Source: Tubiluchus corallicola (Eukaryota; Priapulida; Priapulimorpha; Priapulimorphida; Tubiluchidae). From it: a stretch of 64,000 nucleotides of DNA. This document shows positions 4,884 through 64,000 of the stretch, piece after piece. Where the stretch lies: positions 101,347 to 165,346 of the forward strand of contig JAQGDQ010000207.1 of the NCBI GenBank assembly GCA_030141605.1, read 5' to 3'. The translations under genes were made by a program, and so were the position numbers. Numbering within the stretch: the first letter of the stretch is position 1; each line of letters opens with the position of its first letter. The notes beneath the pieces are model-generated. The model was not told the origin of the DNA, ran no database searches, and saw only the letters and a program-made list of their open reading frames with translations.

Positions 4884-7800
4884 AATGATGATAAGTCTTT
4901 ATTAGCCTCTTTTTGCAGACAAATACATCTGTACTAACACAGACACTAGACAGAGTGAATTCTACAATATTACATTTTTGGATTCTGTAATTAGCTTTTC
5001 TAATTTGGGCGTATAACATTTCTTACAGTGATATTACAGTGATAAACAAGAAGTATTGAAGTGCGTGCTAAAATCAAGGTTGTTAATGCAGCAAGTTTCC
5101 TGTGAGGTAACATAAAAATGCAGATAAATTGATATACCAAATTATTAAATTCTAATTCAATGTTTAAATCCACAAGAGTTACAATCAGTAATCTCAAGAA
5201 CTACACAAATTTAATCTCTATTTTACTAGAAATTAACAGCAGGATCTTAAAATAAAAGGGTTCTTTACAAAGTAGGTTAGTGCCGATATTAAATTTTCAA
5301 TTTTGGTCCAATACACAATATTTAAATTCTCATTTCCCATTTGGTTTAGTAGTACATTTCGCCTATTTGCGTCGACTCGAGGACATCGGTATATCAAGTG
5401 TTCTGGATTCTGGGCTTTCATGCCACATTCGCAAAGCTCATCTCTAGCAAATCCAATATGACTCATCAATTCATTGAAATTTCTCTGTCCAGTCAATAAC
5501 CTCACTGCTGCTTCTTCTACTCTTCGTTCGGGTTTTCCAACTTTTAAAGTAAGAGTCGGATCTAAATTTTTATGCGACAAATTGGCTGTAGTTTCAAAAG
5601 TGGAAGTGTTTCCATTACATACACATGGAAACACTTCCACGTATTTAAATTTAAACTGATGTACACACTGAGTACACATCACAGATCACTCACGCGACAC
5701 GGCGTTCTAGCTTAAGACTGCAGTAAAGAACAGCAATACCTTTTATGCTAAACAAAAGGCAACAACTAAACCAATGGAAACGCTTGCATGTTGAAAAGTC
5801 AAATTTCCCACTTTCTAGTCCTAATTTGTGCTGCACGTAGAGTAATTTATGTAGAACTGGATTGTCATAGCCAAATAACCTTGAGCAACATCTAGCATTT
5901 GCACATGATGTAATAAAGATCCTGGACAGAATACTAATTTGGATCATACAAAAATACAGTCAAATCGCATTATAATGACCCTCTTCATAACGCCAACCTT
6001 GCTTAACACCCATATTTTTGGCAAAAGAAAATGTCGATATTTATTTTCATTAATTTGTTTAATGTATTTATTAATGCCCCTTCTTATAATGCCACACTTA
6101 ATACAGAGCCAATTTTTTTGCAGTTCCAATGTAGGCAGCACAAAGAGGTTTGAAGGAAGACCAAACGATTGTTTAGACTCAATCTCATTTTAATTTACTG
6201 TCCAAAATATACATTTTCTTGCCTATAAAAGTTAACAATTGTTCCTTATATTTGAATAATTAGCTTAGAAAGTTAATTAACGGCAACCGAACACAGCTAT
6301 TGCTTACGTCAGAAACTAACCACAGTTTGTGCAGTGGCAGGCATCTCCCTTGCGGATCAAGCACGTTTGCGTAAGTTTTACAGTACTGCTTAAACGCATG
6401 ATGTAACGAAAATGGGCTTACGTCATATGACGCCAAAAACTAACACTGCAGTTCATGACCATATCACAGTGCCACCTTCTATTTGTCGGCCACGCGCACG
6501 TGACAAAAAGGCGCCCCATTGCCAATCTTAGTAGATTCACTGAGCAGCCTCTTTGAAAGTTTAACAAAATTTGAATATCCGAGGTAATTGTTATTCAATC
6601 TAAGCTTTGATTTAAAAAAAGCTTTTGTAGTTTTCAATATTTCAGAGCATTCTTTATTCTGAACTAATATTTACACGAAAATCCAGTTTTGCTTTAAGTA
6701 TATAATATTTAGAAGTTGTGTGCTGGGTTGTGTGACTAGCATGAACAAGTGTAGAAAATGAAAATGTATATTAAATATACATGTGCAGGATCACTGTGAA
6801 AAGGAATGATGAAGGAACTGTGAAAGAAGAGAAAAGCTAATAATAGAAGCTGACATTTATGAAGGTCATAAGACATGCAAACTATGTTACACTCATTTAC
6901 AGAATATTAATTAAGGAATTTATGGTAAAAAATCTCTAAAATTTAATGACGTCTTATTATTTTTACATAATTACCTATTATTAGCCCGTTTGCCCTGGGA
7001 AATAACAAGGCTAGAATGTGGCCGGGTCTCAACTTAATCCTAAGCCATACTGTATTCATGATCGTTTCATAAATTTTATTTCTTTTCAATTGCTCAGAAG
7101 TTAATGTTCATGTAAGTTCACAGCAGTGGGTATGAAAGTCGAAACTCAAAATATACTATGAATGTATGTAAGATAGTCTAACAAAATAGCTTTAGCCATG
7201 CGTAAAGAGGTAAGGTTTTTAGCCGAGTGGTCATACTGCATGTTTAGTAACAACGGTTAAGCAACACCAAGCCTGATCAGAAGCTGGATGGGTGACTGCC
7301 AGGTTCAATACTCTCTCTGGCATTTTCATTCTCCGTACTGATTCTGGCCATTTACCGGTACCTGTGATGCATTTCAAATTAACACCCGAATATGACTAGG
7401 CCGCCTCTACTGGCTCAAAGTCTCATTTTAAAGGATTATACTTGACAAGGAGATCTTGTCATGACCAGAACCATCTACATAAAGTAGGTATCATCACGGA
7501 ATGTGTCAAACTGAACAAAAAATGGTTAGATTGCCGATAAAATGGATGCCAAAGTAAACATTTAAGCACCCACCCCTCGGTCACAGATTAACACTTTCTT
7601 CACAGTTGTTCAAACAGGTAAAACAAATATTTACATTACGCGTTAAACCGACGATTAACATGTATTGATAAACACGCCATTATAATAGAGTTGCAGTTCG
7701 AGGTGAGGATTCTCTACCAGAAAGCGAATTCCGATCGAATAGAATTTGTGACTTTCGAATTCGAATCAAACCGAGTTTCGTCATTTTCGAAACTGAATTG

Positions 7801-10800
7801 AATTCGAATTTTTGAATCACGAATGAAAGCAGTCTCACAAAGATAACTTGATTTTGTTCTGCAGTAAAAACACTAATAGTTTATTTTAAAAATTGTGCAC
7901 AGCTAAGTTGTGCTGAATGCATGATGTTTCAAGCTTTTTAATGATAAAGAGTGAATACACTCATATCTCGGTTTGGTGGACATCGCTTTCACGGATATTG
8001 GAAGAATCGGACAAAACCCAGTGCCCTAAAAAGTCCCGCATACTACGGACATAGCCTGTTGTTTTAGCTGATCGCTAGTTGGCAGGTTGTCACTTTGTTT
8101 ACATCACTACATCAGTGCAACCTCTACGTATAAAAATATAGAATCAATTATGCAGAATCATTTTAGTCAAATGCCGACAGTTTCTATATACTTTTGCATA
8201 GGAGCACCAGGTACTAGACATTTTTGAAACAATTAGGCGATCAATTCTGCATTACCTTGAGTCTAATACATAGGGCCTACTGTATTAGCTTAACATAGAA
8301 GCGCCTGTATTAATGTGGAAGCGTCGCAGAGGAGGTCAACAGAAGCATTTCTGGCATCAAACCAAGAGCGATATTGTGTCTCCTCTTGGGCTCGACCGCT
8401 ACCACCAAGTTTCCGATGATCTCACAGAGCTGCCGTCGTACTTCGAGGACCGGAAGCAGTGGCGTGCGATGGTTCTGGATGCCACCTGTGCCGGCCTGCC
8501 TCCACCTGGTGGGGGCAGCAAGTAATGTAATTAGCTTAGTATCAGTAAATACGGACAACTGAAAAATTCGGACCTACTTCTCCCCACTTTTGTCCAGCAA
8601 ACCGAGATACGAGAATATTTGTACAGACATGAATGTATCAACGATTCTCATTTATAATGCCAAATTCACTTGATAACAAATTTGAAAGATGCAAAATGTT
8701 TATCATACCCTTAATTTGGACAGCTCTCGACAGATCAGCTCTTCTGACATGTTATCAAACAGGCCGTCCGATGCCATGACGATGACATCTCCTTCCTCGA
8801 CGTTGAACGAAGAACTTTCTGCGGCCGAGGGACTACAACAGAAAATATTATTACCAAAACCAGCGCAAAAAAGGTTTACACACTTGCTTAGTACATCTTT
8901 GCAAGAGTTCCGAGGTAAATATAAGTTTTCTTGATTGCTGTCAAAATAATATGTTACGGCAAGTACAATAGGAATAATAACATATAATATTAGTTAGTAA
9001 AACTTAATATTGAAATAGTATTGCTAATTATTAATGATAATTTATTTTTAAAGTGCATAAATCGGCAATTATTGTCACCAGATGGTGCTATAAAACAGGT
9101 CTACAAAAAAATTTAAGCATACAATAAAAAAAAATCACAAGACAACTAATTAAATGATATAGTAAAAATGGGCTTTAAGACTCACGCTAATTTAACGTTA
9201 CAATAAGAAGATGGGTTTAAGATTCATTTTAAAACGATTATAATCAGCAATAGAATGCAAGCTAAATGAAAGTTTATTCCATTCACGCGGAGCTGCACTG
9301 GCAAAAACACTTATTGCACTATATTGCAGGTTTTTACAGTGTAGAGACATTTAATGTGTTAATAAAAGACATTTTTTCAATGCATCTATTTAAAATGTTG
9401 TTTAAACGGGTTGCTTTAAACCCTCAGTTCCCAAACTGGGGTACTAGTACCCCTTGGGGGTACCAGCGAACACCACAAGGGATACATGAGAAGCCTCTTA
9501 GACAATTTTAAAAAAGTGTTTTATAATAATCAGCAGGTGATTCAGACATCTCTGCTGACAGTGCCAACAATCTGTGGTATTTGGCCGAGGTCTTGACCCC
9601 TGTCCACTGTAAAGCTGTTAGTAAACTTCTGTGTGTTTCCTGTGTGAAGCAGGCTTTTCAACGATAGTGACAATCAAGACGAAAGCCCGAAATCGCCTTG
9701 ACATCTGCGAAGACATGAGAGTCAGTCTGTCGAAAAGCGATTAAAAAAGTTGCTTTCTGCCATGCCACAGCAGCCGTCTCATTGAACTCTCACTTAGTGC
9801 ACTTGATTGGAGCAATACGTATAATATATATAATAAAAATATTCGTGACATTACGTCAGTAGTACATGGGTACGTTAGGAACCGGGGCTTTAAACTGCAT
9901 TTGTTGGTATGATATTTTAATTAGTATATACATGAGTATCTTAAATCATTGAACTAAATGATTGGCTGAATGGTTTGCAGAAGACCTACACAAAAGGTTT
10001 TGACATAGAGGCAGTCACAATATGCAAGTGTTAAAATTGTTTAGCTGCTGGACGAACCTACAGTTTGGCAGCCATTAACAAGATGTAAAACTGGTTAATA
10101 TATCGTTGTTAAACAGTCTAGAAATTCATTAGAGTGTTTAAATTAACATCTTACAACACATTTGATAAAATGGTACTTTTTATTTTTAATTTTTAATGTC
10201 TTTAAATTTAATGTTTCTTACAAATTTCAAATGTATTTTATTGCTCAGCTTGCTAAGACTTTAAATGATGCAGTGGATATGATAGTGCGCTATGTAAATA
10301 GATTTTACATTACATTACATTAATAACATTTAGGTCAAAAAACTGCATTTCCAATAACCAGCTGTACAGTTACAAAATTTATTGTATAAATACTTTTTCG
10401 TGTAGTAATTACTTATTTTGCTTAAATATTTTATAATTACTTGCTTTGAAGGGGCTGGGAACTCATACAGGTCGGATTTCTAAAATCAGACGAAGAAAAT
10501 GTTTTCAAAAGTGTGAAAAACTGCAGGCAAAGAACTATTCAAAGACGTCCTAGATAAAAGCTACAGTTAAATGTCAAGGACTTTTAGTGTAACATTCCCG
10601 GAGTCTATCCCATCAGGGAAAATAAACATCCAGAAGGAGAAATATGCACCGAGTAGCTGCCTAGTGCCTTGTGTTCATTATGTACTAGTAACTACTGATT
10701 TATTGACTAAATGTTTAGTTAGTTGCTCAAAGGACAATAAAACTTAAAACTGCATCAGTTAACATTTAATTTTAATTGTAACTAAAAATTAAACGCACGC

Positions 10801-13800
10801 TTAATTTTAAATAAAAGTACTGTTTTGCCTAGCAAAAAACAGATTATTCAATACAAATCACAATGCATATATCACTTTATTGCAAACTTTTCCATACTCG
10901 TAATTCCAATAATAAATTAATAGTCAACATTGTACTGCTACTACCACCACGGCTACCACCACCACTACTAGTACTAGCAATATTATTGGGGTAGCCGAGT
11001 CAAGATGACAGAGACCCGATAAGGTACCCCTTCAACCTACGCAAAGCAACTAAAGATAAATTATAATGTTATACAGTTACATTTTAGCATAATTCATTGT
11101 AGTTATATATTGTACTGATAATTTTTATTAATACAAATACTATATATAATTCAATTCAATTTTTTTATTCGCTAGATAAACAACAGACGCTTTTGCATCA
11201 CAAAGTACATAAATTAATTCTTAAAGTAAGTACAGATACAAACATTAATTTTAGTGTTGGAGACTTAGGAAGCAAAGCTTACAAGAGGCCACCAGAATCA
11301 GTAATGAAAAAATATTAATAACATATTACCGATAGTTATAAAGAGCTATAGAACGCATGTTTTAAAACACGAGACTAAAACAATCTTTTAGAGTTACATC
11401 AGTCATATAGTTATAATTATTATTGTATCGTCGTCGTCATCATCATCAGCTTCTTTGTCGTCGTCATCATCATCATCGTCATTGACATCGTCATCATCAT
11501 CATAATTATATAAGGCAGTATATAAGGGCAGCTGGTTTCTTTTAATACAGATGATACAGTACGACATGACGATGACGCGTCTGCTTATCATTTAGAATAC
11601 AGCGGCCAGATCATATTAAAGACTTCAAAAATGGTACCCGCTGTCACCCTGTCTGACTTTAATGGGTTAAGGGGGTTGATAATAATCTCTCATGTAGTCG
11701 TAGTTTGTTATTTATAGTCGGCAATGAGAGCTGAGTATAAGCCCGCGTTAACACTTGACCCTAACACCAATTTCAAATAAAGATTATTTATATAGTGCCT
11801 GATATTATAAATGAATCATTTTTAGATCACGAATAAAATGTTGAATACCCTTTATGGTGTCACAATAAAGGGTATTAAACATTTCATTGCTGTTAAGCAT
11901 GGTAGGTCTCAAGAAAGCTCTCAGTAAAGTACACTTTTAAGTAATATCTCTTAGATCAGTGGTTCCCAAAGTAGGGGTAAATTACCCCCGGGGGTAATAT
12001 GTTTTTTTGTGGGGTAACGGGCACCCCTCTGAAAATTTTTAAAACTTCGCTCGGAATGCATTTTACGTAGATTTCTTCTTGAGTTGGAGAAGTAGTACTA
12101 GGTGGGGGGTAATGGACACGACCGGGTTTCCCGATTTGGGTAACGGTCAGAGAAAGTTTGGGAACCACTGTCTTAGATAATGAAAGAACTGTCATGTTCA
12201 CAGTATACACTACTGTCATGGCTGCTACACTGCGTATCATGCAGCTTCACAAAAGGCTAGTCTAATAAGCCTTTTCACAGTTCAGGGCCTGATCATGGTC
12301 GCTAAAAGGTCAAAGGTTAAGTGTACCAGACAACACATTTGTTTACACTTGACAAGGCCTCGCAGCCCATGCTATTGTAATAGTAACAGTTAGCTAGAGC
12401 CTTACCTAGTTCATTTTTTCTTGTTCCCAAGCAAGGTCCTGCTAGTAGATCACTCTACGCATAGACTAATGCATAATTAAGTGAAGTTCACGTAAAACAA
12501 TTGAAGCTACTGAACTTTGAGTTACCCATATGTCATCTGACGATTGTAGTTAAGACGCGTTGCTGTGGTACACTTAACCTTTGACCTACAGCAATTGCAC
12601 ATGCGCACAACGAAACTATGAAAAGGCTTATAGAACAGACATCATTATCGTACATGCTTCAGTCACACATGCGCAGAGTCGTTCCGAACGTGATGTCACT
12701 TCCGCTTTCTTCCCGGATTTTTCGTTTTTCGCAAGAAGTCTGTGCGGCGCTAAATTTCAAGTGTTTGAATGCAAGTTTATAAAAAAATAAAGCCGCTTTT
12801 TTGCATGAGGCTAGTCAATAAGGAATTTTGACAGCAAGAGTCTACCAGGGTCAGTGGACCTTCAAGAGCAATGCCATTTCATTGTTTTACTTTGACATGA
12901 CTGATTTATATACAAAAATACAAGCAGAACAAAAATTACACAGAGATTGTAATTAGATGCAGTTACAATTAATTAATTACATAGTCATTACCGAACGCAA
13001 TAAAGACATTCTCTCCATTTTTTTCTAAAGGAAGAAGTAAAGAAAGCATGACATTTATCTAACTGTTTACAAATACCGCTAGTACAAAGACTGAATATGC
13101 ACTTTTGACTGATAACGTTGAAATACTTACAATCGAAATTTGTAGTAACATTTCTAACACTAGCCTTGCAAGTATACAAGATTTTCTAATGGAGATGTTG
13201 TAAGCAACTTTTACTTTGCCCAGCGAAATGTAGCTATAGAGTTAAAACTACTGCAGTAGGAATTGAATACTTCTTAACAGCCAGTGAGGAAAACTTGCCG
13301 AAACGTTTGATTAATTGGTTAACTCTAGAATAATGAATTGTTCTTTCTCTAATAATGACAAGATTGCCTTCATTATTTTCAAAAACAATGTGCCCGAAGT
13401 ATCTGTCCTGTTTGGGGGGGGGGGGGGGGCTTTATACAAACACATTCTATACTGATGAAAGTTTGTGCAACTTTTTTAAAAGCAGGTGACTTTATCGAGG
13501 CCAATTTGGTCTTTTGATCACCCAGCCAATCCTTTCAACAGTACTCACTTGACACATCAAGTAGGGGTTATCCAACGAATTTTACAACTCTCTAGTAACT
13601 TAATGGCTTTTCTATTGAAGAATTTTCTAGGCAGATATCATGTCAACGGAGCAATAAACCTTCACTTAGGCAACATGCCCTGGAATTTCTGAAGTTTATG
13701 ACGTAATTAACTTTACCGACTATCACGAAATAAAGGCTATAAAAGCTCCTTTGGTCGTTTGCCAGAACAATGCGCTGTGTAAAATTGACGTCATAGTTAC

Positions 13801-29500: not shown

Positions 29501-32500
29501 CTTATGGGTTTTGCTATGTAAGCACACATATTGTATTGACAAAGTTCAGATAGCAAGTTTTCTTGAGGTTGGTGAAATCTTACTATTTTTCATGATGAGC
29601 ATTAAGTACACAGGTATTGCATGTCATTTTCATTTATTTTTGGCAGCTGTTGTGTTGATGAAATTGCCGCCCGACATGTCAATGCAGACTGTATCATACA
29701 CTACGGACGTGCTTGTCTGAGCCCAACAGGTGGCATTCCTGTACTATACGTGTTTGGACGAGAACAACTTGATGTCGACGACTGTTGCAGCAAGTTCCGT
29801 TCTTTGTTCACAGATGTCGCTTCCAGAATTGTCATCATCGGCGATGTAATGTACGATTACTTATTAGGTGAGAATGTCTAACAATCTTGTTCGAATTTGT
29901 GAAAATTTTGTATACCTATTACTTTACCATCCTTGTTTATTGGTTGTATGTGCCTGGATCTGCTAGTGTTTCATGCATTTTAACTTTTCTTTGCTTGTTT
30001 TTTTACGTCTCTTAAAATAGTTTTCTCTTCATAGCTTTGTATATTTTATAATAATTTAGAAATTGACTAAATATGTACTTGTTACCCTGTCAGGGTATCC
30101 ATGCATCCAATGTAACGTGAATTATCTCAGCTTAGAATAACGTACAGCGATGAGCTTGGTATCAAAATGATACCGGTATTGCCGACTTATGGACAATTTT
30201 GCTATGCAAACAAACATATTATTGAAGTACATATTTTCATTACTGAACGAATTGAATTCGAGCTGGTTGTATTTTATAAATCAGAAAGTGAGAGAACCTT
30301 GGAATTTATTGCCTATTAAGGTGAATTCAGGTGAACGTAAAATGTATCAATTCCTAAAAGAAGTATCAGTCAACCATTTTTGACAAAAAACTGCAGTTGG
30401 TGTGTTTGATTTGTATGTGTTTTACTAAGCACTGCAATAACACTTGTAAATGTGACGTATTATACATGCACTACCTTTACCTTCATTTGTGCATTTGGCC
30501 CACAGTTGGAAAGGGAGGCTTGCAGCAAAAGCATTGTTGTCTTTAAGCTTTCTATTAGTCATTTTTTACAGTCTGCCAATATTGTCAGATTTTATTTTTC
30601 TTTTTCAGAAGAAATTTGCTCGCGTTTGTGTTCGAACTATGAGAGTTTAACTGTTGCAAAACTTCAGCACATTTCGTCATCATCCATTGACACTTCCGAT
30701 GAAAGGATAGTGCAAAAATGTGGTAGAACGTTTTCCGTTCCCATAAATTCCGCACTAGAAGATGCTGACATGTTTTACGTAGGTTTGCCGGACTCATCAA
30801 CCATGTTGAACTTAATGTTGACGTTTAACAGGTGTAAGTTTTCTACGTATAACCCTGAGAACAAAGAAGGGCGACGTGAAATTTTGAACGTTAATAAAAT
30901 GCTGATGAGGCGATATTATATGATAGAAAAGGCGAAAGATGCACAAATTGTCGGAATTCTGGTGGGAACACTGGGCGTGGCGAATTACGTAGGCATCATA
31001 GATCAACTGAAATCAGTTATCCGACAAGCGGGAAAGAAGTATTATACCATCAGCGTGGGAAAACTGAATCCGGCTAAATTGGCAAATTTTCTGGAAATAG
31101 ACGTGTTTGTGTTAGTCGCGTGTGCAGAAAACTCTCTGATAGATTCGCAAGATTTCTACAGGCCGATCGTGACGCCGTTTGAAATGGAAATAGCTTGCAA
31201 TCAGCAGCGGACGTGGACCGGTGATTACGTGACTGATTTTCAAGAACTTTTACCAGGTGTGAATTTTGTTTTTGATCTCTTTACAACAGGTGTAATAAGG
31301 CCTGTGGCGGAACAGAATTTGAAAGAGATGTTTTAACTGTGATTGCCCAGAATACTACACCTTTTTATTAAAGAACAATTAGCCGTATGGCAAATTTGTT
31401 ACAGAAAGAAATGATGTGAATACAGCGGGATTTGTACCCAAGATCAGTTATGTCCTCTTGCTCTAACTACCTGAGCCATGTATCCACATGCAGGGATGAG
31501 AATTTTCCGCGGATACGCGGAATTCCGAGTTTTTGCAAGACCAGTAGTGTCATTTTTGTAAATCGCGTAAATTTGTTGAGAGAATTTTTACGGGCCCAGT
31601 ACATTATATCACAAGATGACCGCTAGTTGGCAGTCTGTCACTTTGTTTATGTCACGTAAATCAGTGTAACCACATGTATATCTCTATGTATAAAAATATA
31701 GAATCAATTGTGTGGAGTTATAAAAGTCAATTGCAGACAGTTTTTGTATACTTTTGCATAGGAGCGGCCAGCGTTTTTGAGACAATTAGGTATCATGTAT
31801 CCTTGATAGTTGGGTATTTTAAATTATGCATGAAAGAAGTAATTGAAATTTAAGTCAACTTGGAGGCTCTCTATTTGTCATTGCAAATTGTTGTTGGCTC
31901 CAAGGGGGGTTCACCCCCTTGAACCCCCATGGGGGCCTATGCGGCCCCCAAACCCCCAGCCTGTTTCAGAGTTTTTTGCAATTTGTCATTCTCATCCCTG
32001 CACATGCAAGAAGCAGCCCTGAGTTCTCCTCCCTGCCTATTCAGTACTACTTTCTCAATGTGGGTACATAGTTCAGTGCGTGTAGTTAGTTCACTTAGTT
32101 TAATACATTACACTATGTATAGTATGTTATAATACGTTATAGTTTAATTCTAGTCACATGTTCTAATCATTTCATATCTGCTCAGAATTCAGAAGTATTC
32201 AGAAATATTGGCTTCAGTTCGCACACGTGAAGCCTTAGGCTTTCCTCTATCAGTGAAATGATTTTTATTCTTGCAGACAGGAATCAAATTAAAGTTCATT
32301 AGTTAATTAGCATGCTAGGATGAAGTGCAGAACATCATTATGCAAAAGCTAAATTTGATTTACGCATCTGAAGTTTTCGATTGTCAAATGTTGGAAGTAA
32401 TTACCTAATTTTTTTGTAATTCAATATATCACAGGCTGGAATCCAGCACTTAAATGTAGGGTTGCTCAGCAGTCAATACAGTGTTTGTAGCAAGACTGGA

Positions 32501-47707: not shown

Positions 47708-49673
47708 TTAGTTGTGATAGCTTCGGCCACCGGTTCTCCCACGATATGGTTGACTGTATCCAGGATAAGTTTGATCACCTTGGTAAGTTGAAGGATACCC
47801 GAAATTTGGAGCTCGCTGTTGGGACGGTTGAGCAGGGTGCAAGTAAATATTATCAGACCTTTCAAATTGTTGCTGTGGCTGTGCTAAGAAGCCATTACCG
47901 TAACCTGTTAGCTGAAGTCCTCGAGAAGCGGAACTGGTGTCATCAGTATCGTCAGAAGTGTCCTCTTGAGACTGCTGAGTGACGTAGCCGTTCTCGTACG
48001 ACCTTGATGGATATCCTTGAGAACCGGAACCAATAGTTGCGTCACTGCTGGTATCGTCAGTCTGGGAAGGGAATCCAGGATAAGTTTGATCACCTTGGTA
48101 AGTTGAAGGATACCCGAAATTTGGGCCTCGCTGTTGGGACGGTTGAGCAGGGTGCAAGTAAATATTATCAGACCTTTCAAATTGTTGCTGTGGCTGTGCT
48201 AAGAAGCCATTACCGTAACCTGTTAGCTGAAGTCCTCGAGAAGCGGAACTGGTGTCATCAGTATCGTCAGAAGTGTCCTCTTGAGACTGCAGAGTGACGT
48301 AGCCGTTCTCGTACGACCTTGATGAATATCCTTGAGAACCGGAACCAATAGTTGTGTCACTGCTGGTATCGTCAGTCTGGGAAGGGAATCCAGGATAAGT
48401 TTGATCACCTTGGTAAGTTGAAGGATACCCGAAATTTGGGCCTCGCTGTTGGGACGGTTGAGCAGGGTGCAAGTAAATATTATCAGACCTTTCAAATTGT
48501 TGCTGTGGCTGTGCTAAGAAGCCATTACTGTAACCTGTTAGCTGAAGTCCTCGAGAAGCGGCACTGGTGTCATCAGTATCGTCAGAAGTGTCCTCTTGAG
48601 ACTGCTGAGTGACGTAGCCGTTCTCGTACGCCCTTGATGGATATCCTTGAGAACCGGAACCAATAGTTGCGCCCCTGCTGGTATCGTCAGTCTGGGAAGG
48701 GAAGCCAATTCCGCCATTACTGTTAAAAAAGTAGTTGAGTGCAGACAATCCGGCGGTTGGTGAACGAGCTCCAGTAGAGAAGGAGGCTCTACTATCGTCA
48801 CTGCCATCGCTGCCGTCGTCGCTTTCGGTTCCCGCAGAAGAGGCTCCGCTATCAAAATCAGAGAAACGTGAGTAACCAGTAAAGCTTCGGCTATCTGATG
48901 CTGTGGTATCTTCCTCTTCTGTTGCTTCTTCCTCTGGAGGTGACTGGCCGACAAATGCATAACCTCCATCAGCGAAGTAGTTGTTAGGATTGAGCGTGAA
49001 TCTGAACGATGCAGATCTTCCATTCTGGGTATCGGAGTCTTCCTCATCGTCATCGGTGTTTGAGGGCAGATCAGATCCGAAAGGGCGCCTGTAGATGCTG
49101 CGAGAGGAATAACCAGATGGCTGCTCCACATCTGTTTCAGCTGTGGAATCCTCAGTGGAATCACTCTCTTCTCTTGCAGCGAGTGAATAACCTTGTTGGA
49201 AGAGATTCAGAGGCGATAGGTTCAGGTTCAGTGGCCTCAGATTGATATTGAATGAGCTGCTATCATCCTCTTCTTCATCACCACTGTCGTCATCGTCATC
49301 GTCTACTTCAATGTCCTCTTCTACCTCTTCCTCTACTTCTGGTGCTTCGGTTGTCGTCTGTTCTTCAGGTGCAGGGATAATATGTGGAATGGCGACGTAC
49401 CCATAATCAGAGCCAAAGAGACGTATACCATTACCACCGATGCTTGCCTGAACGCTAGTTGGTTCCAAATGACCGTAGCCATGGTAACCACCGTAACCAC
49501 CATAGCCGCCGTGATAACCACCAGTACCACCACGACCACCGTAACCACCAGCGCCATATCCACTTCGGCCACGAGCAAATCCACCACCATTTAGTTGATT
49601 ACCAGCAAATCGCCTTCTTCCAGACCCCATTCCAGACCCCGCTGCAGATCCACCTGAACTAGCCCTGAACAGT
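47708..49673 (-). CDS. Secreted protein exon 3 (repeat-bearing)
   Basis: Acceptor TTTTCAG|A, then LFRASSGGSAAGSGMGSGRR and on to the stop just after GRTGGRSYHN. 655 codons without interruption despite extreme composition. GC-rich against AT-rich flanks. Confidence 0.92.
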
Positions 49674-52600
49674 CTGAAAAGTTAACGGACGTTTATCAGT
49701 GGGAGCAAGAATAGTTAAATTGCTAAATGATTTGCGGCGAACATTGGGCAATTGCTGACTAGAAGTGCATTCATGTTTAACGTTATCCAGTACGTTTCTG
49801 AGACTTGGCGGAATTCACCAATAGTAAGGTTAGTGAACACATGTGCACGCGTTCACACCTGTTAACGGGCATAACACTTACAGCAGTTAGCCTAGCTGCC
49901 ACTTAATTGAACACTAGGCACAAAAATTGTGGTACAACGAGGATTTTAACCCGGAATTTAGCTGTTTCAGAGCACAGAGCTTTTCTGCTAACTTAGCATA
50001 CGAGCACACTGACAAGGTCCTACATATATGCTATGTACAAGTGTACACATGTGTATGAAATCAGATATACATGAAGCCTCAAAAATGACTTTAAAAAAGG
50101 CATTTTTATATTGAGACCAGCAGATGTCATTTTCTGGGAGAAAAACATAACATGCTATTCCACCAAATATATTGTCATTCTGTTTATATTCGTGACGTAT
50201 AGTGTATAAGATAATTTTATCAAGATAATAATTCAAAGTCACAATGAACAAATCGAGTTTAACCAGCAAGAAACTATCCCTCAAACGAGGCTGTGACTTT
50301 CTAATGTATATGTAACAAGTATCTTCATGTATGTATATGTAACAAGTATCTTCATGTATGTGTATGTAACAAGTATCTTCATCTATGTATATGTAACAAG
50401 TATCTTCATCTATGTATATGTAACAAGTATCTTCATCTATGTATATGTAACAAGTATCTTCATCTATGTATATGTAACAAGTATCTTCATCTATGTATAT
50501 GTAACAAGTATCTTCATGTATGTATATGTAACAAGTATCTTCATATATGTATATGTTACAAGCATCTTAATCTATGTACATGTAACAAGCATCTTCATCT
50601 ATGTACATGTAACAAGTATCTTCATCTATGTACATGTAACAAGTATCTTCATCTGTGTACATGTAACAAGTATCTTCATCTATGTATATGTAACAAGTAT
50701 CTTCATATATGTATATGTTACAAGCATCTTCATCTATGTACATGTAACAAGTATCTTCATCTATGTACATGTAACAAGTATCTTCATCTATGTACATGTA
50801 ACAAGTATCTTCATCTATGTACATGTAACAAGTATCTTCATCTATGTACATGTAACAAGTATCTTCATCTATGTATATGTAACAAGTATCTTCATATATG
50901 TATATGTTACAAGCATCTTCATCTATGTACATGTAACAAGTATCTTCACCTATGTACATGTAACAAGTATCTTCATCTATTTACATGTAACAAGTATCTT
51001 CATCTATGTACATGTAACAAGTATCTTCATCTATGTACATGTAACAAGTATCTTCATCTATATACATGTAACAAGTATCTTCATCTATGTATATGTAACA
51101 AGTACCTTCATGTATGTATATGTAATAAGTATCTTCATCTATGTATATGTAACAAGTATCTTCATGTACAGCAGTGCAATGTCCGACTTAACTGCAACCC
51201 AGGAAGCAGAAACAAATGCATTTCAGAGGGTCTGCTCAAAAAACCTTAAACTAAAATTGCCATACATCATTTCAATTGAGCAGCTGTAGGACTGAGGATC
51301 TTTGGAACACTAAAATCAGAATAAGAAGGCTAAGATGGGTAGGACAATTAATGACATTGCCAGAACAGCACCAATAAGATAAGCATTAAACCAGGCACGG
51401 AAACCTGCTAAACAAATTGGAGATCAAGAACTAATAAAGATTTACTACAGTTAAGACCAAACTTAAAGCCATAAATAAAAAAAGGTAAGATTAACATTAA
51501 ACAAAGCATTGAAACCTGCTAAAAATGGGTATCAAGAACAATGGCGACTCGTAGGTAAAATTAGTGGGGGTGTTGCAAAACCAAAAATTTTTTAGCCATT
51601 GTTTTAATACTGTGTAAAACGAAACAAACATAATTATTATGTAATCTTAATGGTGTAATTTTACACAAACAAACAAATTTACACATAAACTTGACAAAAC
51701 CCTAAACAAAAATATTGTTTTCTTACGAATAGCCTAAATTGTCGCAGTTCAAGAATATGCCGATACAGGGTTTTTAAACACGTGACAACTGACAAACCGT
51801 ACTGCGACAGTACGCTTTCTACCTAATGTACAGCGTCTTATCTCAGACATGTGCGCATGGCCGCATGCGCACAACAGCCAAACACCACGTTGTTTGGGCT
51901 GTGAAGCAAATTGTACTCCCCTCACATGCTCCGGTTCCGCACAAGTATGTTGAAAGAACTAAAGAAAAAAGATTTATTATATTGACTATTATCGGTAATA
52001 AAGAGTGAAAACAGGGGGTGCTGCAGTACCTACACACGCACCACTGGTTGAGAAATAATAAAGATTTTTAACAGCTGAGACCAAACTTATCAACAGAGTC
52101 ACATGAGCTGAAAATTTTAGCTGCAGACAGGAAACAGTGGGGTGATCTAATAAAGGATAGAGGCTCAATGTCTACAATAATAGATGTTTAGAGCAACAGT
52201 TTGAGAAGTCGTGTTTTTCATTTTTTCTTAAATGTACAATTTTTCATTATTCTAATTCATTAGAATTCATGTTGTTCTTTTTTTCAAAATGAATAAGGGG
52301 AACTTACTCATCGCCAGCGCCACCCTGTCGCTGTTGCCGAGATGTTAGGGCTTGATTGCTGAGACCGATGACATTGCGTCCTCCACCGAATCCTGCCGTC
52401 GCGCCCCCAGCTAAATTGCCCCCTGCGCCCCCGCCTAGCTGAGCAACGCTGATGCCCTGAAATATTGAAAAACACACAGCATATTAGGTAAGATTCATTC
52501 ACATTCAATGACATCATTAAGTCAAGTTTCACGCGCAGCAGTAAGTAAGTAGTTTATCACTGTTTTTATAATAGCAAAATACACAACTAAGTGATTTATG

Positions 52601-58631: not shown

Positions 58632-59282
58632 ATTTGTGACGGATTAACTTCCATGTCAAAGTGCCTGAGGGTCTCAAAATCGTTTAATTTCTGCACGAAA
58701 AATTCTCCTTACGGGTCTCCTCAGCTACAGTGCTGAAGCACAATTAAATGGAGTTTTGAACATGGGGATGAGGGAACCTGACAGGGGCTAAAGCATGGGG
58801 TTGAGGGAACCTGACAGGGGCTAAAGCATGGGGTTGAGGGAACCTGGCAGGGGCTAAAGCATGGGGTTGAGGGAACCTGGCAGGGGCTAAAGCATGGGGT
58901 TGAGGGAACCTGGCAAGGGCTAAAACATGGGGTTGAGGGAACCTGACAGGGGCTAAAGCATGGGGTTGAGGGAACCTGACAGGGGCTAAAGCATTGGGTT
59001 GAGGCAACCTGGCAGGGGCTAAAGCATGGGGTTGAGGGAACCTGACAAGGGCTAAAACATGGGGTTGAGGGACCTGGCAGGGGCAAAAGTTCCTATCAAG
59101 TGAAGTGCATGAACTTAAAACAGGTTTATGAACAGGTTCCCTCAACCCCATGTTCAAAACTCTAGTTTAGTTGTGCTTTAGCACTGTAGCTGACGAGACC
59201 CGTAAGGAGAAATTTTCTTACTAAAATTAAACGATTTTGAGACCCTCAGGCACTTTGACATGAAAGTTAATCTATCACAAAT
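58632..59282. mobile_element. Foldback element: 150-bp inverted arms around a 33-bp minisatellite
   Basis: Left arm 58632-58780 and right arm 59133-59282 are near-perfect reverse complements (AAGTGCCTGAGGGTCTCAAA versus TTTGAGACCCTCAGGCACTT; CCTTACGGGTCTC versus GAGACCCGTAAGG). The loop holds the 33-bp tandem array. No transposase; no clear target duplication. The right arm ends 20 bp past the stop codon of the adjacent receptor exon, so it sits in that gene's 3' UTR. Confidence 0.88.
58761..59089. repeat. 33-bp minisatellite, 10 copies
   Basis: Units CATGGGGTTGAGGGAACCTG then ACAGGGGCTAAAG, alternating GACAGG/GGCAGG and AAGCAT/AAACAT variants. Lies in the loop of the foldback element. Confidence 0.96.
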
Positions 59283-59301
59283 GAACAACGTACCTTGCTT
59301 T

Positions 59302-59724
59302 TTAATCCACATCATCAGCTTCCTCTATTGCATACCCGCCGTCCGTTCCTCTACGGAGTTTGTACATCCTCATCTCGTTGCCGTCGTAACGAGACTTATA
59401 GTTAACGGAAACGGCCGTAGAACGTGTCTGACTCATGGACATTTGCCTATTGTACTTGTACTGTTGGACGTACCGTTTCCCTCTAAAACATGCGCACAGA
59501 GCGTACTTGAAACTCTCCCGAAAGTTTTTAGACATGAATCCGTAAACTATCGGATTCACGCAACTGTTAAAGTACGCCAAGAGGTAGAAACACTGTCTCA
59601 TGGGCTTCAGGTACCCTTCGTTAAGTTGGGGCAGTACGTCCCAAGCTATTAGGACGTGATTGATGAGTATAGGGCCCCAGCAGATGGCGAATAATAATAT
59701 CACAGCAACGAGCATTTTGATCAC
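59302..59724 (-). CDS. Peptide GPCR terminal exon (TM6, TM7, tail)
   Basis: Acceptor ATTACAG|GTG at 59725, stop TAA at 59302-59304. Contains CWGP and NPIVY. Confidence 0.92.
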   Translation of the reverse strand: MIKMLVAVILLFAICWGPILINHVLIAWDVLPQLNEGYLKPMRQCFYLLAYFNSCVNPIVYGFMSKNFRESFKYALCACFRGKRYVQQYKYNRQMSMSQTRSTAVSVNYKSRYDGNEMRMYKLRRGTDGGYAIEEADDVD

Positions 59725-62700
59725 CTGTAATAGAAAAACAAACCGATGCAGGAAAGGCAATCATATTTTTTGTACAGTACAGTTCTGGATGGTGCATTAT
59801 TTACCTGCACCCCCTAATAAATCAATGAAACTAAACTAGTTGTTATGTTTAGTGTCGTAGTTACTTCCAAGCTTGCCCTACAGGGGCCAATGTAAATAAT
59901 TCCATATGCTTAATATGACCCGTGGGCTGTACTGAGTTTAACACAGTTGAATTGTCAATCGGTTGTGACAATTCTTTAGCGTCTGGTATGATCACTGAAG
60001 AGTCCAGAGAAGAACTCTGCCAACCGCCACATGGTCTAGCGGTTGATGGCAATGTTTCCAAAGAATATGGCATTTTGGACGATCCTAAGGATTCCAACGA
60101 CAATCTAAAATGATCTGAGTTGTATGGTGTCTGTGTAAGTGTACTTGTGTTTGACTTTGCAACACATTTTGAGGTGTTCAAGTGAGCTGGTATCACAGGA
60201 CGTTGTGATGGCTTTAACACCGAGGACTGGGACGTTGTTACGGAGTTCTCAGCTGCGCTTGTGGTACCAAAGAGCTGACCCGAACCATTGCAGGCTAGCA
60301 TTTGTTTAAAAGCCAGACGAAAGTCTTTGTTCTTCCAAGCGTAAATGAGTGGATTGAGAAAGGAGTTGGAAAACGCCATGATGTAGCTTAGTCGACGTAT
60401 CTGCACGTAGAATGGTTGATACGTTGTGGTCAGACACAGTATGCTGAACAACGTCACAGGCAGCCAACACACCACAAAAGATCCTACAACGATTGACAGA
60501 ATCTTTGCAGCTTTTGCATTTTTTCGGTTCGTGCGACTTTGATTAGCATCGACGCCCATCTGTTTCAAGTGGCTGTTAGCTATTGACACGAGTTTCACGT
60601 ACATGACGACCATGATGAAAGCAATGATCAAGAAGTGACTACAGATCATCATTGACACTCCGCGGTTAACGACAAACTCGTAGATGCAAAATCCGGTGTC
60701 GTTTGGCGGATAACTGAAGAACTGCCAACTGCTGGTCATGATCGAGTACGTCCAGGTGCAGAGAATGGTGATGGCAGTGACACTGCGATTGACAATGATG
60801 GGGTAGTGAAGAGGATACTTAATGGCGATGAATCGATCAACGGTAACGGCTAGTAGCGTTGTCAGCGATTCCATCATGAAAATGTTGATAAAGAAGAACA
60901 TCGACAGACAGCCCAGTTCTGAGATATCAACAGACTTTCCTCCGATGAACAAGACGGATTGCACGATTTGTATGTAAACACCCGTGAGTAAGTCGGTTGT
61001 TGCCAAATTCGCCACGTAACAGTTGGCATAAGTCCTCAGCCTTTGATACTTGAACACTGATATGATGACGAGAATGTTTAGCACTTCGATGAACAATCCC
61101 AGCGAGTAGTAAACGGAGAGATTGAGAATAATAGTTTGCAGAGAGGCGTCTTCAACAAGTGAGTCAATTTCGCTGATGTTGGTATCTTTGCTGTCTCTTA
61201 TATTCGACAGATTGCCGGCTACAGTAGAAACTACATTGTTTGTAGAAATCATTATGGTTTCAAATCTTTCTTCCCAGTAACAGCCTCAGAAGTAGGTAAA
61301 TCCGAGAAAAAACTTCATCAGATTAAGAATTTGTTACATATCTTCACTATTTTCTTATTTTTCCGTATCAGGTGTGATCATTAATACGCATGCTCTTGGT
61401 GTGACGTAATGAAATCTATAAATAGATGACATGGGAATTCATCTCTTGCTTCTTTTTCTTCGAGGAAATGTTTTCATAAAACATTTATCGAATATATCAA
61501 CTAATGGTGTAATTGTTAAAGCATCACGTACGCAACTCATAAGTGACTAGTGTTTAGTGTTAAAAAGAACAGAAAAAGTTTGTTCAATAAAGAACAATTC
61601 AGAATAATTACATCGCGAAAAATCTACAGAAATGGTGCAAAATCTTTGCAAAGGTACTTGCCTTTGAATTACACTCGCAATTCTTTATTTGGGGACGAAA
61701 GTTTTTGACCGATTTGATTTAAATCTCAGTGTTTTTACGCGTGTTAACTATTGATAAAATAATACACTGGGCGACGTTAAAACGGAAAAGATTTTACACA
61801 AAAAGAACCGTAATGCACCGAACGAAAATGCAAACTGGAACAATGGCTGAACGGGGTCGGATTAAGGCGGGGGGGGGGGGGGCAGGTCTCCCACATAGTT
61901 AAACCAGCTCTGTGGCTGAACGCTTAACATTAGAACAGTGGTTCCCAAACTTTCTCGGACCGTTACCCAAATCGGGAAACCCGGTCGTGTCCATTACCCC
62001 CCACCTAGTACTACTTCTCCAACTCAAAAAGTAAACACACGTATATGCCACAAGCAAGCAAAATTATTTGTGTTTGTTCGTGACATAAATAAATTTCCAG
62101 GTGTTGTTGTTGTATTGTTGCCAAAACAAGAATTACAATTACTGAACCTGCTCATTACTGAGTGATCGTGGGAACGTGCGAATCATGGACCCCGTGACAC
62201 AGTGTTGCCTGCCGGAGGCAGTCTCTTCAAGAAGAAAACTACGTAAAATGCATTCCGAGCGAAGTTTTAAAAATTTTCAGAGGGGTGCCCATTACCCCCC
62301 CCCCCCCCAAAAAAACCATACAACCCTCGGGGGGTAATTTACCCCTACTTTGGGAACCACTGCATTAGAATATCTACTTTTCTTATTGTGTTTTTTTTTG
62401 TAACTCATTAAGTGCCACGATGTACTCAGGTCAGACATTGAGTAGTTGTACCCGTGTAACAATGGCATTTTCTGAGCTACAACAGTCGAGGTGTACAAGT
62501 CATTTGTATTCATAATGTATTGCAAGAAGTAATTCCTCTAGTCTTCCTTAGAAGTATGGTAAACATTAAAATAGTCTATCATCATCTCTAGTTGTAACAC
62601 TTTAAAACCACTTTGTTCTTGTTAAGATCGTATACAAGGCGATAACGACTGCTGGTGGACAAGTCTTCGATATCTGGTATTGTTACAATCTGGTGTTTAA

Positions 62701-63771
62701 GCTCATTACTAAGACTAAGACTTGGTAATGAGGTCGTCTCTTGGAAGTTTGTACACAATAACACCTCTTAAGAACAAATAAAGTAACTTTTATCAAGTGC
62801 ATTTGGAGCGATTTATGGAATCCAGGTAAAAAGTCACAGGTAAAAAAGTCACAGGTAAAAAGTCACAGGTAAAAAGTCACAGGTAAAAAAAGTCACAGGT
62901 AAAAAGTCACAGGTAAAAAAGTCATAGGAAAAAAAGTCATAGGAAAAAAGCCACAGAAAGGTAACTTTAACAAAAATCCTAGCCAAAATTGTGCCTTTTT
63001 CCCTGTGACTTTTCTCCCAGCCAAAGTTGTGACTTTTCCCGTGGCTTTTTTCCCGTGACTTTTCTCCCAGCCAAAGTTGTGACTTTTCCTGTGGGTTTTT
63101 TCCTGTGACTTTTCTCCCAGCCAAAGTTGTGACTTTCCCGGTGGCTTTTTTCCTGTGACTTTTCTCCCAGCCAAAGTTGTGACTTTCCCGGTGGCTTTTA
63201 TCCTGTGACTTTATTACAGGTCACCGATTTATCGATTATTTCACTAGTTACTACAGTTGTAATGAAACTGCAGTAAAAGAACTTCAACCTGCCGTACTTT
63301 CAGCTTACGAATGGCTTGAGAAAACTCGTCTGTTGTTACGGTAGCTCAAAAGACACCATTGTAATATGAATAAAGCTATTTAAAGCAAAACCGGACCCAA
63401 TCTTAAACTTTAGGTCAAATATATATCTACGTATAAAAAATAAATAAATTGATATAAATATATATAATATATAAAAATACACTACATATTAATGCCCAAT
63501 ACGTATATATGTATATAGACATGTGTATAGATACTATATATACGTATTGGGCATTAATATGCAACGTATTTTTATATGTTTTGTGCACCCCTACCCTGCA
63601 AATGGAGGGTTTTGTGTCCTTTTATTTTGAAACTAAATGAGGTTTAATAAATAAAATACCTGCTTCCGAGTTTGATTGTCATCCTTGGCAGGCTTCTTTT
63701 GCAAAGGAGATTTGTCAACCATTAAAGTGCCATTTGTGGTTGTGTTCGTAACGACAGGAGGCGTCTGACTA
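59302..63771 (-). CDS. Peptide-type class A GPCR, last two exons (5' part beyond window)
   Basis: Seven-helix receptor gene running off the right edge. The exon at 63771-63660 encodes a polar third intracellular loop (SQTPPVVTNTTTNGTLMVDK, SPLQKKPAKDDNQTRKQ) and joins in phase to 59724-59302: VIKMLVAVILLFAICWGP (TM6 with CWxP), INHVLIAWDVLPQLNEGYLK, then FYLLAYFNSCVNPIVYGF (TM7 with NPxxY), KNFRESFKYALCACF (helix 8 and likely palmitoylation cysteines) and a polar tail ending EEADDVD. The RKQVxKML...CWxP and NSCVNPIVYGFMSKNFR patterns are those of neuropeptide receptors (TRH-, QRFP- or galanin-like), but the ligand cannot be read from this part. The roughly 3.9-kb intron contains a second complete GPCR gene. 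The start, TM1-TM5 and the DRY region are outside the window. Confidence 0.85.
59861..61252 (-). CDS. Intronless class A GPCR nested in the intron of another GPCR
   Basis: Complete 463-aa receptor in one exon. N-terminus with glycosylation sites N14 (NLS) and N25 (NIS). TM1 about 43-66; NLATTDLL in TM2; C115 and ESLTTLLAVTVDRFIAIKYP in TM3, with DRF in place of DRY (139-141); W167 in TM4; C189 in loop 2; TM5 about 199-224 lacks the usual proline; AKAAKILSIVVGSFVVCWLP (CWLP 262-265) in TM6; NSFLNPLIYAWKNKDFRLAF (NPxxY 300-304) in TM7; C321 after helix 8; then a 140-residue Ser/Thr-rich tail. KAAKxL...CWLP and NPLIYAWKNKDFR recall the amine/adenosine/melanocortin side of the family, so it is not a near copy of its host gene. 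Ligand unknown. Same strand as the host gene. Confidence 0.9.
   Translation of the reverse strand: MISTNNVVSTVAGNLSNIRDSKDTNISEIDSLVEDASLQTIILNLSVYYSLGLFIEVLNILVIISVFKYQRLRTYANCYVANLATTDLLTGVYIQIVQSVLFIGGKSVDISELGCLSMFFFINIFMMESLTTLLAVTVDRFIAIKYPLHYPIIVNRSVTAITILCTWTYSIMTSSWQFFSYPPNDTGFCIYEFVVNRGVSMMICSHFLIIAFIMVVMYVKLVSIANSHLKQMGVDANQSRTNRKNAKAAKILSIVVGSFVVCWLPVTLFSILCLTTTYQPFYVQIRRLSYIMAFSNSFLNPLIYAWKNKDFRLAFKQMLACNGSGQLFGTTSAAENSVTTSQSSVLKPSQRPVIPAHLNTSKCVAKSNTSTLTQTPYNSDHFRLSLESLGSSKMPYSLETLPSTARPCGGWQSSSLDSSVIIPDAKELSQPIDNSTVLNSVQPTGHIKHMELFTLAPVGQAWK
61936..62362. mobile_element. hAT MITE copy B (427 bp), 8-bp TSD
   Basis: CAGTGGTTCCCAAACTTTCT to TTTGGGAACCACTG, flanked by CATTAGAA at 61928-61935 and 62363-62370. 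It contains all of copy A (11957-12170) in inverse orientation plus about 190 bp of extra interior (about 62030-62225). Lies in the GPCR intron. Confidence 0.93.
62826..63215. repeat. Opposed tandem arrays (GTCACAGG / CCTGTGAC)
   Basis: At 62826-62950 about eight units of AAAAGTCACAGGTA face, at 63000-63215, four roughly 60-bp units of CTGTGACTTTTCTCCCAGCC then AAAGTTGTGACTTTCCC. The motifs are mutually inverted, so the region can fold back. A related short copy begins GAATCCAGGTAA at 56.63 kb. Confidence 0.8.
63466..63583. repeat. Long near-perfect hairpin in GPCR intron
   Basis: Arms ATATTAATGCCCAATACGTA at 63486-63505 and TACGTATTGGGCATTAATAT at 63541-63560, extended outward by AAAAATAC / GTATTTTT. 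This gives about 45-bp arms and a loop of about 25 bp. Size is compatible with a miRNA precursor or a palindromic MITE. Confidence 0.85.
63660..63771 (-). CDS. Peptide GPCR third-intracellular-loop exon
   Basis: Acceptor TTTCAG|T, donor CAG|GTATTTT, 112 nt. The open frame ends DDNQTRKQ, which continues naturally into VIKML of the TM6 exon. Confidence 0.83.
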
Positions 63772-64000
63772 CTGAAAGAAAAAAAGGTGCTGTGAAGTCG
63801 CAATTTTTAAAACAGGGAAAAGGAAGAGAAAGAAAAATGGATAAGGCAGGAGAAGAAGGAGAGAAAAATTATGAGCTTAGAAAACATTGACAGTTACTGA
63901 GTCACTTCTTCAAATAAGCTTGCAGACTGTTTCGATCATACGTCGGAGATGCTTAAAGGAGAAGGAAAACGGGCACCTGGAGAAGGAAAAGGAAGTAGGT

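Follow-up and report, generated by a model that had tools for sequence, protein, structure and literature searches.

In the priapulid Tubiluchus corallicola, a complete intronless class A GPCR gene is nested on the same strand within a single intron of a second class A GPCR gene. The nesting that we observe is real, and is confirmed by the layout of the exons and by a homologous gene elsewhere in the assembly. Very probably these are two independent class A GPCR genes that share a strand, the inner one belonging to a mostly intronless family and the host being a multi-exon gene of the peptide-receptor type. Throughout, the window denotes the whole stretch of 64,000 nucleotides of DNA that was analysed.

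Organization of the nested locus

All components of the pair are read from the minus strand. The host is represented by two coding exons. The first encodes the third intracellular loop (ICL3; 63660-63771, 112 nt) and needs two bases from a preceding exon; the second is the terminal coding exon (59302-59724, 423 nt) and encodes TM6 (CWGP), TM7 (NPIVY), the C-tail and the stop. They are separated by an intron of 3,935 bp with GT...AG ends (59725-63659), and wholly within this intron lies the inner receptor, a complete single-exon class A GPCR of 463 aa (59861-61252). The sequence-only reading had claimed that the third-loop and TM6/TM7 exons join in phase and that a full 463-aa seven-helix open reading frame (ORF) sits between them on the same strand; both parts hold, the first on the open frame of the joined exons and on a same-phase homologous exon pair on contig C744, the second on the ORF itself. 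It had also taken CWxP and NPxxY motifs to mark both genes as class A, in agreement with the motifs of the inner receptor (CWLP in TM6, NPLIY in TM7) and of the host, and with matches of both to the Pfam profile 7tm_1. For the inner ORF this match stands at 1.6e-38 and covers profile positions 2-260 of 260, and for the joined host fragment it stands at 7.4e-14.

The host exons are bounded by ...TTTCAG/T, CAG/GTATTT and ...TTACAG/GTG (slashes mark exon boundaries), and joining them gives a single open frame of 177 aa, with many stops in the other two frames. When the minus-strand splice sites of the window were ranked with a weight matrix, the two host acceptors came 10th and 5th among 3,391 AGs, and the donor was weaker, at 162nd among 3,844 GTs. 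The ICL3 exon ends in [KR][KR]x, which resembles the basic residues preceding TM6 in aligned peptide receptors. Across 59725-64000, with the inner ORF excluded, 63660 was the only one of 83 GT sites with an open in-phase pseudo-exon (30-300 nt) to show this ending, a motif that was picked after the exon was known.

Two other measures were uninformative. A gain in 7tm_1 score was dropped as proof of the join, since it is largely unspecific: the rise is from 38.9 or 40.5 bits to 52.3 with the real exon (exon 2 alone, 38.9), and joining control peptides also raises the score (nine control joins, 38.4-50.4). By codon usage the ICL3 exon (37 codons) does not stand out: its score is equalled by 110 of 895 intergenic open windows, which overlap one another, and one wrong frame outscores the right one. 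The top-ranked acceptor-like site, at 63976, was tried as the start of a further exon and rejected, as by eye no frame from it reaches a good donor in the required phase.

The host receptor and its relative on contig C744

Searching the assembly with the host fragment returned one close relative, on contig C744, with 59% identity over the TM6-7 exon (78 of 134 aligned residues); the next match to another gene reaches 36%. The C744 gene has exons for TM1-2, TM3, TM4, TM5, ICL3 and TM6-7, in that order and on one strand, so that TM1 to TM7 are found, with the N-terminal part falling outside the identified exons. Its ICL3 exon ends KPPADDSTRQRKQ/VIKML where that of the host ends KKPAKDDNQTRKQ/VIKML, in the same phase; the TM5 exon on C744 leaves two spare bases and the ICL3 exon adds one, as the host ICL3 exon does. 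The existence of this homologous, same-phase pair is the strongest check on the host join, and an independent one, and is the reason that the join is accepted. The C744 ICL3 donor was also the only one in its intron region whose open candidate ended in [KR][KR]x. Aligning the two ICL3 exons gave a score unreached in 2,000 shuffles, a result that is overstated because the C744 exon had been chosen as the best-scoring open candidate.

The ICL3 acceptor of the C744 gene is uncertain, at either 208906 (rank 497 of 2,389) or 208915 (rank 382 of 2,389); the ICL3 donor ranks 74th of 2,251 and the TM6-7 acceptor 23rd of 2,389. Codon differences between host and relative over the TM6-7 exon number 41, 35 and 79 at first, second and third positions (134 codons), which points to purifying selection on the protein. 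Over the ICL3 exons they number 19, 19 and 21 (33 codons), with no constraint visible except at the exon end. Points that weigh against our preferred reading of two independent genes include the mediocre host donor, the poorly scoring ICL3 acceptor on C744 and this lack of codon-position constraint in the ICL3 exons.

The best solved relative of the joined host fragment is the QRFP receptor (QRFPR; 1.6e-14); melatonin receptors are likewise among its top matches. For the C744 protein, queried with approximate junction residues and a missing N-terminus, the nearest solved structures are QRFPR (1e-42), KISS1R (3.7e-39) and OX1R (1.1e-38). On these matches the host is predicted to be a class A peptide-type receptor, similar to those for QRFP (pyroglutamylated RFamide), KISS1 and orexin, with the distinction that these receptors are nearest to its C744 relative, whereas the host itself is read only as the ICL3 and TM6-7 exons.

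The host is visible only in part, none of its TM1-TM5 exons being in the window, a point that the sequence-only reading had passed over. Of the roughly 60 kb upstream, some of which reads as N, the readable sequence was searched with the exons of the C744 gene and a profile of receptors from the same genome, and no convincing TM1-TM5 exon turned up (best upstream E-values ≥ 0.19). Because no such exon was found there, the host could be a 3′ fragment, a truncated duplicate of which the ICL3 and TM6-7 exons survive, and the inner gene would then merely lie beside a piece of a receptor. We consider this unlikely: both exons retain open frames, splice signals and phase, and the differences between the TM6-7 exon and its relative fall mostly at third codon positions. 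In addition, part of the sequence upstream reads as N, and on C744 no more than about 4 kb separates the exons for TM3 to TM5 from the ICL3 exon.

The inner receptor and its family

The inner receptor carries DRF at the end of TM3, where E/DRY is expected. Among solved structures, adrenergic, histamine H2 and adenosine A2a receptors are closest to it. Counting back by hand from DRF on an alignment to the beta-1 receptor places isoleucine at position 3.32. An aminergic identity was therefore rejected, and because isoleucine replaces the aminergic Asp 3.32 despite these structural neighbours, the gene is provisionally called an orphan class A receptor. Over TM6-TM7 it shares 27% identity with the host (26 of 98 residues). 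AlphaFold, run on the single sequence, returned a mean pLDDT of 40.7 and a pTM of 0.27, and the model was set aside.

A search of the same genome with the inner protein gave at least 93 matches, itself included, a lower bound in which a single gene on contig C1356 accounts for two rows, as separate pieces; 76 of the 93 have no internal stop, and most of the matches listed span nearly the whole seven-helix region. The nearest paralogue among these, on contig C1209, has 57% identity and consists of one uninterrupted frame of 384 codons. Codon differences between the two number 111, 69 and 175 at positions 1, 2 and 3 (300 codons), and show the pattern of purifying selection. Near this closest paralogue, at locus L060, lies a leucine-rich-repeat ORF of 391 aa (7660-8832, plus strand; Pfam LRR_8, 5.9e-15). 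Many of the matches to the inner protein are clustered, on contigs C1518, C1525, C52, C2272, C401, C2114 and C1770; these clusters of single-frame class A receptors, mostly of about 300-370 aa, are possible chemoreceptor-type expansions.

For phylogenetic placement, receptor ORFs of at least 280 aa were recovered from 38 of 44 loci (L019, L021, L023, L024, L031 and L052 had none). The tree was built from 37 proteins, comprising these 38 plus the inner receptor and the C744 gene, minus L022, L026 and L029. The C744 relative stands in for the host, and the 19 inner-type rows were chosen as the best matches to the inner protein. Because the program warned of long branches, that of the C744 host relative included, the main split alone is used: the 19 inner-type rows fall on one side of a branch with 100/99 support, and the C744 relative falls on the other. 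The inner and C1209 genes are themselves joined at 100/99. The phylogenetic check proposed in the sequence-only reading, carried out with the C744 relative for the host, thus separates the two receptors, and its suggestion that they come from different branches is borne out both by this split and by their different nearest neighbours in the PDB.

Origin of the nesting

On C744 the ICL3-TM6 intron measures 379 bp (208788-208410), and no receptor ORF was found in the TM5-TM6 interval. As this intron is short and without a receptor, the nested gene is specific to the host copy on contig C1779, and was either gained there or lost from C744. Gain in the host copy is the simpler of the two, because the inner family is spread across many contigs. 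A gene from this large and mostly intronless group of GPCRs would have settled in the ICL3-TM6 intron of the host after the split from the C744 gene, unless it was lost from the latter.

How the inner gene came to be intronless is a separate matter. It had been suggested to be either retrotransposed or originally intronless. Retroposition of a spliced receptor mRNA into the intron would explain the absence of introns from the inner gene, and single-coding-exon nested genes are, in the account of PMC3933685, presumably derived from retrotransposition. Such an origin is nevertheless unlikely here, as neither the family nor the flanks bear the marks of a retrogene. The nearest paralogue is itself a single open frame, as are most of the own-genome matches listed; the inner gene carries no 3′ poly(A) tract (longest A run, 6); and no convincing target-site duplication surrounds it, the longest word shared by the flanks being 10 nt, a length reached in 41 of 300 shuffles. 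Of the two suggestions, the originally intronless state is the one favoured, by the 76 of 93 matches without a stop and the single-frame paralogue, and the retrotransposed state is disfavoured by the missing tract and the non-significant repeat. Because the family is mostly single-frame and neither tract nor duplication is present, the intronless state of the inner gene is most simply seen as inherited from its family, and a recent retroposition would be unnecessary. Retroposition at an earlier date may still have played a part, and the family may trace back to a first intronless member that was a retrogene.

It is very improbable that 63660-63771 comes from another gene than the TM6-7 exon, which would make the nesting illusory: the 7tm_1 gain and codon usage fail to prove the join, but on C744 a homologous pair of exons shares both the phase and the end sequence.

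Transcription and the 3′ end

Because the start of the inner gene lies 2.4 kb past the host donor, we infer that it would be transcribed from its own promoter. The host transcript would remove it by normal splicing, and each receptor would then be translated from its own mRNA.

The 3′ ends may be less separate. Only 136 nt lie between the inner stop and the host acceptor, and they contain neither AATAAA nor ATTAAA; the first such hexamer downstream of the inner stop is an ATTAAA that overlaps the host stop (59301-59306, minus strand) and is a hypothetical shared 3′ end. A non-canonical candidate signal, ACTAAA, is present at 59853. In addition, a donor-like CAG/GTAAAT at 59804, which ranks 21st of 3,844 GTs with the weight matrix, could be spliced to the host acceptor, forming a hypothetical 80-nt intron in the 3′UTR of the inner transcript (59725-59804, minus strand). 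Given the short distance and the lack of a canonical hexamer in it, we consider it an even chance that the inner mRNA would run into the host terminal exon and end at a poly(A) site of the host, whether or not the 80 nt from 59804 to 59725 are spliced out. The missing hexamer in itself says little, because only 10 of 38 sampled receptors from the same genome (one of them without a readable 3′ flank) have one within 136 nt of the stop.

The sequence-only reading had also raised co-regulation with the host, or transcriptional interference, as possibilities. Same-strand nested genes in humans can cause host exonization, intron retention and cryptic polyadenylation, effects noted in PMC3192792. 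It is improbable that the two receptors form a linked unit, in which a shared terminal exon and poly(A) site would serve as coding sequence for one and 3′UTR for the other, and use of one promoter would lower the output of the other. If they did, the locus would switch between expression of a peptide receptor and of an orphan one.

Parallels in other genomes

OPN3 is a class A GPCR, and P2RY12, P2RY13 and CXCR6 have intronless coding regions; to our knowledge, MED12L and FYCO1 are not GPCRs. Human nested protein-coding genes include 53 of 158 called tandem, 31 of which withstood a second evaluation, and single-exon genes make up about 41% of nested genes, as given in PMC3192792 from earlier work. 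Among the examples in that source are KTI12 in TXNDC12 and CHML in OPN3, each a single-exon coding gene in a host intron, as here, with KTI12 also in tandem orientation (PMC3192792); the present inner gene differs in being a GPCR as well. GPCR genes nested in a host, as in the present locus, are found in the pairs of P2RY12 and P2RY13 in MED12L and of CXCR6 in FYCO1, listed in PMC3933685 as different-strand pairs, whereas the two receptors described here share a strand. Cases in which a GPCR gene is nested in another gene, or in which a GPCR (OPN3) is the host, are thus already on record. A limited literature search found no published case of one GPCR gene lying inside another in the same orientation, and one may be in print.

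The inner family also has a counterpart in lineage-specific families such as the candidate chemoreceptors of Aplysia, described in PMC2700072 as chiefly single-exon, clustered rhodopsin-type GPCRs. Those of subfamily b measure about 320-360 aa (PMC2700072), and many relatives of the inner gene are alike in exon number, clustering and length.

Because the intronless receptor family is large and dispersed, the landing of one member in the intron of another receptor would not be surprising. The pair represents ordinary nested-gene biology and poses no challenge to the understanding of GPCRs or of nested genes. It offers a clean example of how a dispersed intronless receptor family can yield a nested gene pair, with the C744 relative, which has no insert, as an internal control. 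Gene predictors may fuse two such receptors or drop one of them.

Repeats and other features of the window

The host intron is a site of accumulated insertions, so called because it holds a MITE, minisatellites and a palindrome, all given here on the minus strand. The first is a short element at 61936-62362 with CAGTGGTTCCC terminal repeats and an 8-bp TTCTAATG flanking duplication, which we take to be a hAT-like MITE; a second copy is found at 11957-12170 of the window, in two pieces that align at 87.5% and 97% identity. Minisatellite arrays, partly in opposite orientations, occupy 62823-63220, and the palindrome spans 115 bp at 63466-63580 with 45-nt arms that are 91% complementary. Beyond the intron, about 20 bp past the host stop, a foldback element (58632-59282, minus strand) has 117-nt arms, also 91% complementary, that enclose a 33-bp minisatellite.

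Rfam and tRNA scans of the 64-kb window gave no match. Elsewhere in it, a 640-aa low-complexity ORF (47708-49630, minus strand), rich in Gly, Asp and Ser by eye, contains three 315-bp repeats with a 97% match and has a sub-threshold Pfam match only. A 27-bp minisatellite of about 32 copies (94% match) at 50304-51165 has long open frames on both strands. The open frame at 5233-5685 (minus strand) has no Pfam match at 0.01; from a motif, it presumably resembles the C-terminal part of a LINE-type protein. An exon of a diphthamide synthesis gene of the DPH1/DPH2 type is present at 30452-31336 on the plus strand (Pfam, 1.2e-56).
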